DNA of 32,871 nt from NCBI GenBank assembly GCA_016869045.1, contig VGFC01000033.1:1-32871 (forward strand), read 5' to 3'. Position 1 is the first letter of the stretch. Every line of letters starts with the position of its first letter. The position numbers were made by a program, and so were the translations under genes. The stretch is from Armatimonadota bacterium. Lineage in GTDB: Bacteria; Armatimonadota; Zipacnadia; Zipacnadales; VGFC01. A model generated the notes under the pieces. It was not told the origin of the DNA and made no database searches. It saw only the letters and a program-made list of their open reading frames with translations. This document shows, piece by piece, positions 29,958-32,871 of this stretch.

Positions 29958-31658
29958 CTACAGCCTCCCCGAGCGGATGATCGAGGCCAGCAGCCACATC
30001 CCCAGCGTGAAACCGACGACAAGCAGGATGTACGCCGGATGCCAGATCGGTTGCTGGGCGCCAACATTGACCTGCAGCCAGAGCGCGGGCGCCAAGATCA
30101 TCGCCGCCACGAGGATGCTTGCCGCCAGGCGGTTGAACATCGTGTCGAGCCGATGCATGGGCCGGTCGAGGTCCTCGTACTCCAGCTTCACCTTGAGCCC
30201 CCCCGCATCGGTCTTGCGCATCAGCGCCAGGAGTTGGCGCGGAAGCTGCAGCGCATGGTGATGCATGCTGCGGCCGAGGCGGAACAACTCCATGGCCGCA
30301 CGGCGAGGCCGGGCGAACTGTGCCATCGTGTCGCGCACGACGGTTCGCGCGACCTCCCGGAAGTCGAACCGTGGATCGAGGGTCCGGCACTCCGCCTCCG
30401 TCAACACGAGAGCCCGCACGATCTGCGCGAAGATCGGCGGCATCACCACATGGTGATGGAAGAGCAGGCGCAGCAACTCCTCCAGCACCTCACCGATCCG
30501 CAGGTCGGCCGTGCTGACCGCGTGAAAGCCGACCGTGTGGCGGTTGATGTCCGCGCGCAACGCGATATGGTCTGTCCTGTCGGTCGAGACCCCCATCGCC
30601 AGGATCTGGTCCGCCACATCCTCCGCGTTGCCGTCGATCAGGGCAAACAGCAGGTAGACGAGATCGTCGCGCAGGTGCGGCGGCACGAACACGATGTTCC
30701 CACAGTCCAGGAAATACAGGCGCCCGTCGCGACCGACGAGGACGTTCCCGCCGTGCGGATCGGCGTGGAAGCATCCATCGCGCAAGATCTGCTTGAGCAC
30801 GATGCCCGCCAGATTCCGGGCGAGCGTCTTCCGGTCCAGCCCCGCGCTCTCGAGGGCCTCGGTCTCGGACGGCTTCCAGCCCTCGATGAACTCCAGCGTC
30901 AGGACGCGGCCCGTCGAGAGCGCATCGTACACGCGCGGCACGCTCGCACGCGGGTCGTCGGCCAGGAGCGACCCGACCAGCTTCGTGTTCTGCGCCTCGC
31001 GATCGAACTCCAGCTCGCCGCGCAGGTTCCGCGCGAACTCCCCCACGAGTTCGGTGATCCGGTAGATCGCGAGCCGCTGCACGTTGCTCTCGATCGCCCG
31101 GGCGACCCGCATCAACAGCGGCAAGTCCGCCCCAATCTGCCGGCGGATGCCCGGCCGCTGCACCTTCACCGCCACTCGCTCTCCGCTCGGCAGCGTCGCG
31201 GCGTGCACTTGGGCGATAGAGGCGGAGGCAATCGGCTCTTCGTCGAAGGAGGCGAAGCACTCGCCCATCGGTTGCCCCAGGTCCGCCTCGATTACTTCGC
31301 GCGCCTTCTCGAAAGGGACCGGCGTGACGTGGTCCTTCAGGACGCGAAGCTGCTCGATCCAGTCGCCCGGCAGCACGTCCGACCGCGTCGAGGCCGCCTG
31401 CCCCAGCTTCACCGCCGTCGGGCCCAGGTCCTCAAGCATCCGCCTCAACGCGACCGGACCCGGTAGGCCCATCTCCTTGCCGCGTCGCAGCCGACCCGGG
31501 ACCCAGTCGCCCAGGCCGCTGCCATGCAGCGTTGAGGCGAAGCCGTAGCGCGCCGCCACGACGCCGATCTCGATGGCGCGGGAGACTCCTCGTGGAGTCG
31601 CTCGCGACTCCTCCGCGCCCGGCTTCGTGTCAGGTGACAAGGTCCACCTCACTCCCAC
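29958..31658 (-). CDS. ABC1/AarF/UbiB-family atypical kinase
   Basis: Up to 566 residues. It shows the KxGQ motif (LGPTAVKLGQAASTRSDVLP), the ATP lysine region VAVKVQRPGI, the catalytic loop CFHADPHGGNVLV, and two C-terminal membrane helices (ASILVAAMILAPALWLQV and AYILLVVGFTLGMWLLASI). UbiB-type proteins support quinone or lipid metabolism at the membrane, with weak ATPase or kinase activity. The metal-binding DFG is replaced by DCG (D318 in this numbering), a departure from the family consensus. The start is unclear. GTG 31658 lies 29 nt inside amrS, while TTG 31640 has GAGGTG before it. Both place the palindrome at 31584-31611 inside the coding region, because no ATG lies near the first family residues. 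Confidence 0.9.
   Translation of the reverse strand: MGVRWTLSPDTKPGAEESRATPRGVSRAIEIGVVAARYGFASTLHGSGLGDWVPGRLRRGKEMGLPGPVALRRMLEDLGPTAVKLGQAASTRSDVLPGDWIEQLRVLKDHVTPVPFEKAREVIEADLGQPMGECFASFDEEPIASASIAQVHAATLPSGERVAVKVQRPGIRRQIGADLPLLMRVARAIESNVQRLAIYRITELVGEFARNLRGELEFDREAQNTKLVGSLLADDPRASVPRVYDALSTGRVLTLEFIEGWKPSETEALESAGLDRKTLARNLAGIVLKQILRDGCFHADPHGGNVLVGRDGRLYFLDCGNIVFVPPHLRDDLVYLLFALIDGNAEDVADQILAMGVSTDRTDHIALRADINRHTVGFHAVSTADLRIGEVLEELLRLLFHHHVVMPPIFAQIVRALVLTEAECRTLDPRFDFREVARTVVRDTMAQFARPRRAAMELFRLGRSMHHHALQLPRQLLALMRKTDAGGLKVKLEYEDLDRPMHRLDTMFNRLAASILVAAMILAPALWLQVNVGAQQPIWHPAYILLVVGFTLGMWLLASIIRSGRL
31584..31611. repeat. Triple palindrome cluster at the start of the UbiB-family gene
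   Basis: GACTCC (31584-31589) pairs with GGAGTC (31594-31599) around TCGT. GGAGTCGC (31594-31601) also pairs with GCGACTCC (31604-31611) around TC. The two hairpins compete for the same middle arm. The block lies just past the amrS stop and, with any plausible start, inside the UbiB-family reading frame, where it is translated as an Arg/Ser/Pro-rich lead segment. Confidence 0.55.
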
Positions 31659-32628
31659 ACTCGCCGCAGCGGCCGTCGCTCAGCCGCGGCGGCGAGGCCG
31701 AGAAGCCGTCGCGCTCCACCACGACCGCGCCGCACGACGGGCAGCGCGTATCGCTCGCGTTCGGCAACCGCGCGTTGCCTACATAGACGTACTTGAGCTT
31801 CTCGCTCGCGATCCGGTAGGCCTGTTCGAGCGACGCGAGCGGCGTGGGCGGCTTCGTCATCTTGTGCGCCGGATGGTAGCGCGAGAAGTGCACCGGAATG
31901 CGATCGCTGAGGCCCGCCACCCAGTCAACCAGCGCACCGACCTGCTCCGCCGAGTCGTTCTCACCGGGGATCAGCAGGTTGGTCACCTCGACGTGGCAGC
32001 GCCCCAAAGCGCGCTCGACCGTGCGTCGCGGCACGCTGCCAGGCCCATGGCACAGGCGGCGGTAGAAGTCGTCCGCCATCGCTTTGATGTCAACGTTCAT
32101 GGCGTCGATGTACGGCAGCAGCTCCTCCAGCGGCCCCTCCTCGATCTCCCCGTTCGTGACCAGCACGTTCTTCAGGCCCCGTTCCCGCACGAGCCTCGAC
32201 GTGTCGAGCACGTACTCGAACCAGATCAGTGGCTCGTTGTACGTGTAGGAGATGCCGATGTTCCCCCGGCGCTCCTCGCGCACGGCAAGGTCCGCCGCCT
32301 CCTGGGGGGAGAGATGCGAGCCGGGGACCTCCCCCGTCGAGATGTGCCAGTTCTGGCAGAAGTCGCAGCTCAGGTTGCAGCCCCACGACCCCAGCGAGAG
32401 AATCGCCGAGCCGGGGTGGAAGTGATAGAGCGGCTTCTTCTCGATGGGATCCAGGTTGGCGGCCGTCACTACACCATAGGTCAGCGCCCGCAGGCGCCCG
32501 CCCCGGTTGCCACGCACGCCACAGAGCCCCTGCTTGCCCTCGGCAATCAGGCAGTGGTGCGGGCAGAGCGCGCACCGCACGCGCTCCCCCTCCACTGACC
32601 AGTAGGCTGCCTCCCGCAACTCACCCAT
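31630..32628 (-). CDS. amrS: AmmeMemoRadiSam-system radical SAM enzyme
   Basis: This 332-residue protein starts at MGELREAAYW, matching the family's usual N-terminus. N-terminal cysteines C19, C22, C26 and C36 (VRCALCPHHC, GLCGVRGN) precede the radical SAM motif C84, C88, C91 (SWGCNLSCDFCQNW). IEKKPLYHFHPGS, ISYTYNEPLIWFEYV and FSRYHPAHKM are family blocks. The C-terminus ends in a zinc-ribbon-like pair, CPSCG and CGECG. Family members are named for association with AMMECR1 and Memo proteins; neither is in the window, and the reaction is not established. ATG 32628 has only a weak ribosome site. ATG 32685, with GAGGGG before it, is an alternative that would translate the upstream repeats into about 19 extra residues. 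It is followed by the UbiB-family gene. Confidence 0.92.
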   Translation of the reverse strand: MGELREAAYWSVEGERVRCALCPHHCLIAEGKQGLCGVRGNRGGRLRALTYGVVTAANLDPIEKKPLYHFHPGSAILSLGSWGCNLSCDFCQNWHISTGEVPGSHLSPQEAADLAVREERRGNIGISYTYNEPLIWFEYVLDTSRLVRERGLKNVLVTNGEIEEGPLEELLPYIDAMNVDIKAMADDFYRRLCHGPGSVPRRTVERALGRCHVEVTNLLIPGENDSAEQVGALVDWVAGLSDRIPVHFSRYHPAHKMTKPPTPLASLEQAYRIASEKLKYVYVGNARLPNASDTRCPSCGAVVVERDGFSASPPRLSDGRCGECGSEVDLVT

Positions 32629-32640
32629 CGGCCCCGTCGT

Positions 32641-32697
32641 GTAGGGGCGCGATTCATCGCGCCCGAGTGTAGGGGCGCCATTCATGGCGCCCGCCCC
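32641..32697. repeat. Two tandem 28-nt palindromic repeats with compensatory base change
   Basis: The first unit (32641-32668) and second unit (32669-32697) both begin GTAGGGGCGC. Unit one holds GGGCGCGAT-TC-ATCGCGCCC and unit two GGGCGCCAT-TC-ATGGCGCCC; each is a perfect 9-bp stem with a two-base loop. The single differing base pair (G-C against C-G) is exchanged on both arms, so pairing is kept. They lie directly upstream of amrS. A related block is at 5135-5161. Confidence 0.75.
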
Positions 32698-32711
32698 TCT
32701 GCCGCGCGCCC

Positions 32712-32871
32712 TCACGTCACGCACGCGCAGAATGCGGGCTCTCCTTGGACTTGCTCCACCAGAGCCGTCGCCCGCGATACCGCTTCCTCGCTCCCCTTCA
32801 CCATCAGCCACACGGCGCCCTCGGCCCCACCGACGCCGCCCGCGCCGATCTGCACCGCCTCGGCGTCCGTC
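32712..32871 (-). CDS. C-terminal end of an unidentified protein (5' part outside window)
   Basis: An open frame enters from the right edge and ends with TGA at 32714-32712, giving 52 residues. It reads TDAEAVQIGAGGVGGAEG and continues through VWLMVKGSEEAVSRATALV to EPAFCACVT. It looks like a small alpha/beta domain: a glycine-rich loop, a strand (AVWLMVKG), a helix (EEAVSRATALVEQV) and a cysteine pair at the end. Codon use has the GC-rich third positions of its neighbours. I do not recognise the family. It lies upstream of amrS on the same strand, separated by the tandem repeats, and may be the preceding gene of the operon. Confidence 0.6.
   Translation of the reverse strand, partial: TDAEAVQIGAGGVGGAEGAVWLMVKGSEEAVSRATALVEQVQGEPAFCACVT

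Follow-up and report, generated by a model that had tools for sequence, protein, structure and literature searches.

The far end of the window (the whole stretch of 32,871 nucleotides analyzed here, from an Armatimonadota genome) carries the gene amrS and, upstream of it, the 3' end of a second, co-directional gene. The two are separated by an intergenic gap of 83 nt (32629-32711), within which a pair of tandem repeats fills positions 32641-32692:

31630..32628, reverse strand: amrS, encoding an AmmeMemoRadiSam radical SAM enzyme (TIGR04337, 304 bits against a cut-off of 220); likeliest start ATG 32628
32641..32664, forward strand: REP unit 1, type CG (GTAG tag 32641-32644; stem 32645-32652 / 32657-32664; loop TTCA 32653-32656)
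32665..32668, forward strand: dyad linker GAGT, 4 nt, separating unit 1 from unit 2
32669..32692, forward strand: REP unit 2, type CC (GTAG tag 32669-32672; stem 32673-32680 / 32685-32692; loop TTCA 32681-32684)
32712..32871, reverse strand: 3' end of the upstream co-directional gene, with its stop TGA at 32712-32714 (located by eye)

Both 24-nt units match GTAGGGGCGNNATTCATNNCGCCC exactly on the forward strand and are spaced 28 nt apart. A preliminary description had reported two tandem hairpins with one base pair exchanged on both arms, and the exact units bear this out: positions 32651/32658 form a G-C pair in unit 1, and their counterparts 32679/32686 form a C-G pair in unit 2. The perfect 9-bp stem given in that description holds as palindromic arms of nine letters with two between them, but the hairpin that can actually form in each unit has 8 bp and a TTCA tetraloop. 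Each unit opens with an unpaired GTAG, a diagnostic feature that had gone unmentioned. Shuffling the window 100 times produced no REP unit, even with as many as three mismatches allowed, and the folded strand of the dyad is more stable than its own shuffles (z -3.8 and -4.4). An Rfam search returned no match at the dyad coordinates at E values up to 1; its one match in the window lies outside the repeats (E 0.21) and falls under its gathering score.

Does the dyad belong to amrS? An ATG at 32685 (reverse strand) is in the amrS reading frame, and it had been suggested that the repeats would be translated into the protein if this start were used. The start is, however, most likely ATG 32628, 12 nt from the dyad: a same-genus amrS orthologue begins MFIEREAEFW, compared with MGELREAAYW at ATG 32628, and a simple codon-based gene caller places the start at 32628 once the repeats are masked (32685 when they are not). 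Because this is the likely start, the dyad should lie outside translated amrS. One alternative is that the hairpins form a cis-acting RNA leader controlling the translation or stability of amrS, with pairing kept for that function. The dyad does take up most of the 83-nt gap, stopping 12 nt before ATG 32628, and its folded strand outperforms shuffles. But among the 30 loci fetched with an amrS profile, which matched 41 genomes, 29 have no REP at up to three mismatches, our own window being the only exception; the same units, moreover, occupy hundreds of other sites in both orientations, and Rfam has no match here. A leader function is therefore very improbable, and any influence on amrS expression would be incidental to REP insertion. 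Upstream frames were inspected in four relatives (L294, L297, L305, and L309), and in each a protein resembling, by eye, the end of the upstream gene is encoded just ahead of amrS; one of the four, searched against NCBIfam, gave no match.

How abundant is the repeat in its own genome, and is the pairing maintained there? In this assembly (G000; 7.87 Mb, 95.4% complete), we found 788 sites when up to three mismatches were allowed, with listed sites on many contigs, vs. a single site for a reversed-pattern control; 655 sites remain at up to one mismatch. Stem pairing was assessed with a seed of GTAGGG plus TTCA only, leaving the 3' arm free, in a 1.20-Mb sample of the genome, 800 kb of which was picked by contig number and not by matches. 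A total of 161 copies were recovered, of which 143 had all eight pairs, 12 had one pair broken, and 6 had at least five broken; five of these last six run from the loop into GATTGYGT sequence. Within the match-independent 800 kb, 40 of 50 stems were intact. Redealing the 3' arms at random left a mean of 41 intact stems (maximum 59 in 2000 shuffles), compared with the 143 observed. The stem types GCG (54 copies), GCC (37), GTG (33), and ACG (18) are all fully paired, and a fifth paired type occurs once; the five paired types average 28.6 copies, whereas the 13 broken types average 1.4. The GTAG start is common to both window units and the four common types, and a 3'-seeded scan that does not require GTAG gives the same types.

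Because the paired types are numerous and the broken types rare, the stem appears to be maintained by the copying process itself, i.e., upheld by whatever copies this GTAG-tagged REP family. The stem exchanges probably go back to a small number of events amplified by copying and did not arise separately in each of the 161 copies; this pattern suggests that foldable types were multiplied and that single copies later decayed. The preliminary description had held that a majority of broken stems among genomic copies would argue against selection for the folded form, and the copies collected from the sampled genome show the opposite. Its view of the exchange as a local compensation before amrS, by contrast, is not supported, as the two units are two of the four types common genome-wide, which adjoin most often in that order. 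The window's hairpin pair is an ordinary REP dyad.

The 166 units in the 1.2 Mb sampled group into 62 clusters. Direct dyads that combine types CG and CC are the most frequent arrangement (17 clusters), followed by a block in which CC CG and, after a gap, ACG TG stand in opposite orientations (8 clusters). Type CC comes after CG 7 times with a spacing of 28 nt and 24 times with one of 30 nt. According to our own rough, codon-based gene caller (910 genes called; coding fraction 0.885), the clusters are mostly extragenic: 5 lie inside called genes, 38 in co-directional gaps, 7 in convergent gaps, 2 in divergent gaps, and 10 at sequence edges. The share of clusters in co-directional gaps does not exceed expectation, because such gaps dominate among all called gaps of at least 30 nt (444 co-directional, vs. 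76 convergent and 80 divergent). Within co-directional gaps, the median distance from the upstream stop to the cluster is 25.5 nt; sense arrays number 16, antisense arrays 11, and mixed arrays 11. The earlier suggestion that the hairpin is kept either as RNA or as an enzyme target is thereby narrowed: single-orientation arrays of both senses (16 and 11) weaken the RNA option, and the enzyme target stands.

Could these REPs, having spread by transposition, now be functional sites kept by the host behind genes (e.g., for mRNA 3' protection or supercoiling), with the host maintaining the stems? Their placement close behind stops, with few in genes, matches that of known REPs as treated in the main text of PMC3733652. 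However, the purging of insertions into genes would yield the same pattern, broken types are present as rare variants rather than missing, and no unit occurs at the remaining amrS loci fetched. We regard host maintenance as unlikely, though less so than an RNA leader, and favor maintenance by copying. A separate observation concerns the REP loop: at six places, a second element starting like GATTGYGTTGA, with a hairpin like GTAGGTCGGGATNCCAATCCCGAC, or the complement of one, nearby, directly follows the loop TTCA (forward strand at L045 and L259; reverse strand at L047, twice, and at L049 and L057), as if it inserted into the REP loop.

The repeat is not confined to this genome. At up to one mismatch, it occurs in 13 of the 61 genomes searched, counting our own, and at least 104 stretches from named genome contigs contain the exact 24-mer; among the matches listed, carriers include Gallionella, Polyangiaceae, Poribacteria, Chloroflexi, Longimicrobium, Coriobacteriales, Acidobacteria, and Armatimonadetes, as well as the complete genome of gamma proteobacterium HdN1. 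With the same seed, other genomes yielded 227 copies, 152 of which are the 24-mer itself (a share biased by the fact that those loci were largely chosen for it); all pairs are intact in 43 of the remaining 75, and the most frequent broken types have 3 to 5 copies each. Our assembly consists of 723 contigs, which might invite the explanation that the repeats are an artefact of fragmentation, or chance palindromes. Such an origin is scarcely credible given that shuffles of the window yield no unit, that 788 sites stand against one in the control, and that the exact 24-mer recurs in other genome records, a complete genome among them.

What enzyme might copy the repeat? A check for a RAYT-type protein, as the preliminary description had proposed, led to a putative RAYT-like HUH transposase of 211 residues in the same genome (G000:C303:7257-7889; hereafter C303), with the motifs MPNHVHG, WQRGYYE, and RWYIEENP. 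Its gene is both flanked and interrupted by the same REPs, with two upstream, three downstream (five flanking), and two internal; the internal ones are read in frame as GVMNDAPT and GAMNRAPT. The gene surfaced through split matches to the NF047646 profile, which were seen in several genomes and correspond to genes with an insert. Since the protein scores 53.8 bits on NF047646, under the cut-off of 80, we call it RAYT-like and not a member of that equivalog; on Y1_Tnp it scores 20.2 bits (cut-off 23). The locus carries types CG, TC, and TG; the common CC and ACG types are missing from it. Judged by this arrangement, C303 is the likely cognate enzyme of the window's REP, and selection for the folded form, probably as the target of a RAYT-type enzyme, is supported by both the intact stems and the gene. 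Ordinary Y1 transposases were considered for the same role and rejected: the ten own-genome Y1_Tnp matches have no such REP in their fetched flanks.

Several other loci in this genome bear on the transposase and its relatives. Two partial copies of the C303 transposase occur at L204:1-428 (C303) and L206:59-406 (C539); in L204, the sequence ahead of the remaining internal REP (with GTTAACATGAAACGGTCCGCC, reverse strand) recurs between two REPs in L047. Two sister family genes, C43 and C64, have their own REP families of 72 and 69 sites; C43 holds its REP inside the gene, and the units of C64 were found outside the matched gene. A single genome thus contains three genes of this family, every one with a separate REP family, and two of the three hold the REP internally. 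Two more RAYT-like genes, at L207 (G000:C141) and L208 (G000:C405), adjoin other hairpin families, namely an array of units of the GTGGGGCGGCCATTC type, and GTAGGACAGGCTTCAGCCTGTCC. A Y1 transposase locus, L031 (G000:C344), stands beside several copies of GTAGCCGTGGGCGCAAGCCCACGG, within repetitive sequence that is open in multiple frames.

We also asked how often family members carry a hairpin inside the gene. A family-alignment search of 291 genomes of the phylum gave matches in 45, from which we took the best 30 loci, so that weaker members are under-sampled; four loci without a recognized frame were excluded, leaving 26. A perfect GTAG hairpin (at least 7 bp) lies between the HUH and WQR motifs in 15 of the 26 frames, and in 17 when stems of at least eight pairs with one mismatch are allowed. 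Dropping the seven genes that also belonged to the query alignment, six of which have the hairpin, leaves 9 of 19. The same scan found none in 29 stretches of 1 kb centered on amrS loci, and none of 20 canonical RAYTs above the NF047646 cut-off has an internal hairpin in the profile-matched part of the gene. Higher proportions came from an earlier family set (20 of 23 genes, i.e., 24 minus L188) and from all family genes gathered (28 of 39), both including many from genomes chosen for the 24-mer.

Hairpin class follows the transposase tree. We assigned hairpin classes A-E by eye after the hairpins had been seen, from the hairpin sequence only; internal and flanking hairpins agree in class in 15 of 16 classable genes (shuffled mean 5.1; none of 20000 shuffles as high). 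On a tree of 38 proteins with the linker removed, the five classes need four changes, which is the minimum (shuffled mean 16.1; none of 200 as low). The backbone of this tree is weak, with 7 of 35 inner branches starred and an unsettled bootstrap, and neither the window's REP class (two changes) nor class B is set apart by a single branch. We excluded L188, a different Y1 protein, from the family counts and L344 also from the tree, and a motif filter omitted the family genes L195, L266/L332, and the C64 gene from the class-agreement count and the tree. All 20 alignment rows have both the HUH motif and a downstream tyrosine, with H72, H74, Y176, and N180 invariant; the choice of catalytic tyrosine in the family is our assumption. 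The best solved-structure match of the 20-member family profile is TnpAREP 4er8 (E 7.5e-6), and four members tested on NF047646 score 53.1-58.5 bits, under the cut-off of 80. Three distant relatives of the transposase are on plasmids. A structure predicted without an alignment for the HdN1 homologue had a mean pLDDT of 33.8 and was discarded.

Overall, we think it very probable, on the strength of these analyses, that the dyad before amrS is a GTAG-tagged REP pair, a short, non-autonomous piece of mobile DNA that, by analogy with known TnpAREP enzymes, a cognate RAYT-like HUH/tyrosine transposase would bind and cut. A single-stranded REP would fold into GTAG plus a hairpin; a RAYT-like enzyme, or a lost relative of it, would bind and cut the repeat and spread it; and the stem would be retained because only folding hairpins get copied. 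Most likely, an enzyme of the C303 type works like that of Stenotrophomonas maltophilia and dyads are copied into gaps behind genes, in which case the window's dyad would be one such copy, set between the upstream gene and amrS. In the portions of PMC8266576 consulted, TnpAREP acts on single-stranded REP and uses GTAG in recognition or cleavage to a varying degree; the REP of S. maltophilia is an 8-bp perfect palindrome in which mid-stem mismatches affect or almost abolish cleavage, and the E. coli enzyme requires a bulge. Against this proposal, of the seven Armatimonadota genomes with at least 14 sites when one mismatch is allowed, only three (G000, G036, and G055) possess a RAYT-like gene with the window's class. 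In the other four (G004, G014, G028, and G053), no NF047646-matched locus carries this REP class, and the family profile found no other; a different enzyme could be behind it there. Loss of REPtrons is described in the main text of PMC3733652. The lack of the common CC and ACG types at the C303 locus, the sub-cut-off NF047646 score of its protein, and the weak backbone of the tree also weigh against the proposal.

The less ordinary part of the result is a RAYT-like group that often has a REP in the gene. In the literature searched (main texts or parts thereof, among them PMC3733652, PMC8266576, PMC6006769, and PMC12306157), we met no account of a REP lying within a RAYT gene and clear of the gene's ends, although flanking REPs overlapping the ends of RAYT genes, and REPs within other genes, are reported (PMC3733652). 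When REP strings were searched in the literature, the matches listed were only to the shortest, GTAGGGGCG, and none was under a REP-related title. The embedded hairpin possibly has a role in the transposase gene; a tolerated insertion in a flexible linker is the simpler explanation. We advance only tentatively, and think rather doubtful, the idea that the enzyme's own hairpin, held as both DNA and peptide in the HUH-tyrosine linker, is a working part through which the enzyme acts on its own gene (by self-limiting expression, or by REP-mediated homing or repair), the fit between hairpin and clade being kept across spread between phyla. These natural enzyme-substrate pairs, and the class changes along the tree, provide a means to ask how such enzymes read the hairpin and how REPs spread, a process that a 2021 paper calls poorly understood in the part consulted (PMC8266576).

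How does this system compare with those already known? As presented in the main text of Di Nocera et al. 2013 (PMC3733652), the GTAG REP super-family shares the terminal GTAG, a palindrome of 20-40 bp, high copy number, a mostly intergenic location close behind stops, and a tie to RAYT genes; the dyads here differ in standing mainly head to tail, and a search of that main text for GGGGCG at the start of a word, for the window's sequence family, gave 0 matches. Rickettsia palindromic elements and intragenic REPs, covered in the same text (PMC3733652), are likewise palindromic repeats in frame within coding sequence, but here the host gene is the presumed mobilizing enzyme and the insert sits in one protein region. 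With RAYT/TnpAREP (NF047646; E. coli TnpAREP 4er8; REPtrons), the family has in common the HUH, WQ.xYxE, and YI..NP motifs and a cognate REP flanking the gene, while its members have a long variable linker, often holding a REP, and the four tested score under the NF047646 cut-off. REPINs and BIMEs also consist of paired REPs and have composite blocks with both orientations. A REPIN is two inverted REPs acting as a mobile unit; the window's dyad is direct, direct neighbors exceed inverted ones within its class, and direct dyads spaced at 28 or 30 nt are the usual arrangement. By eye, the REP families of the sister genes C43 and C64 seem to consist largely of inverted pairs.
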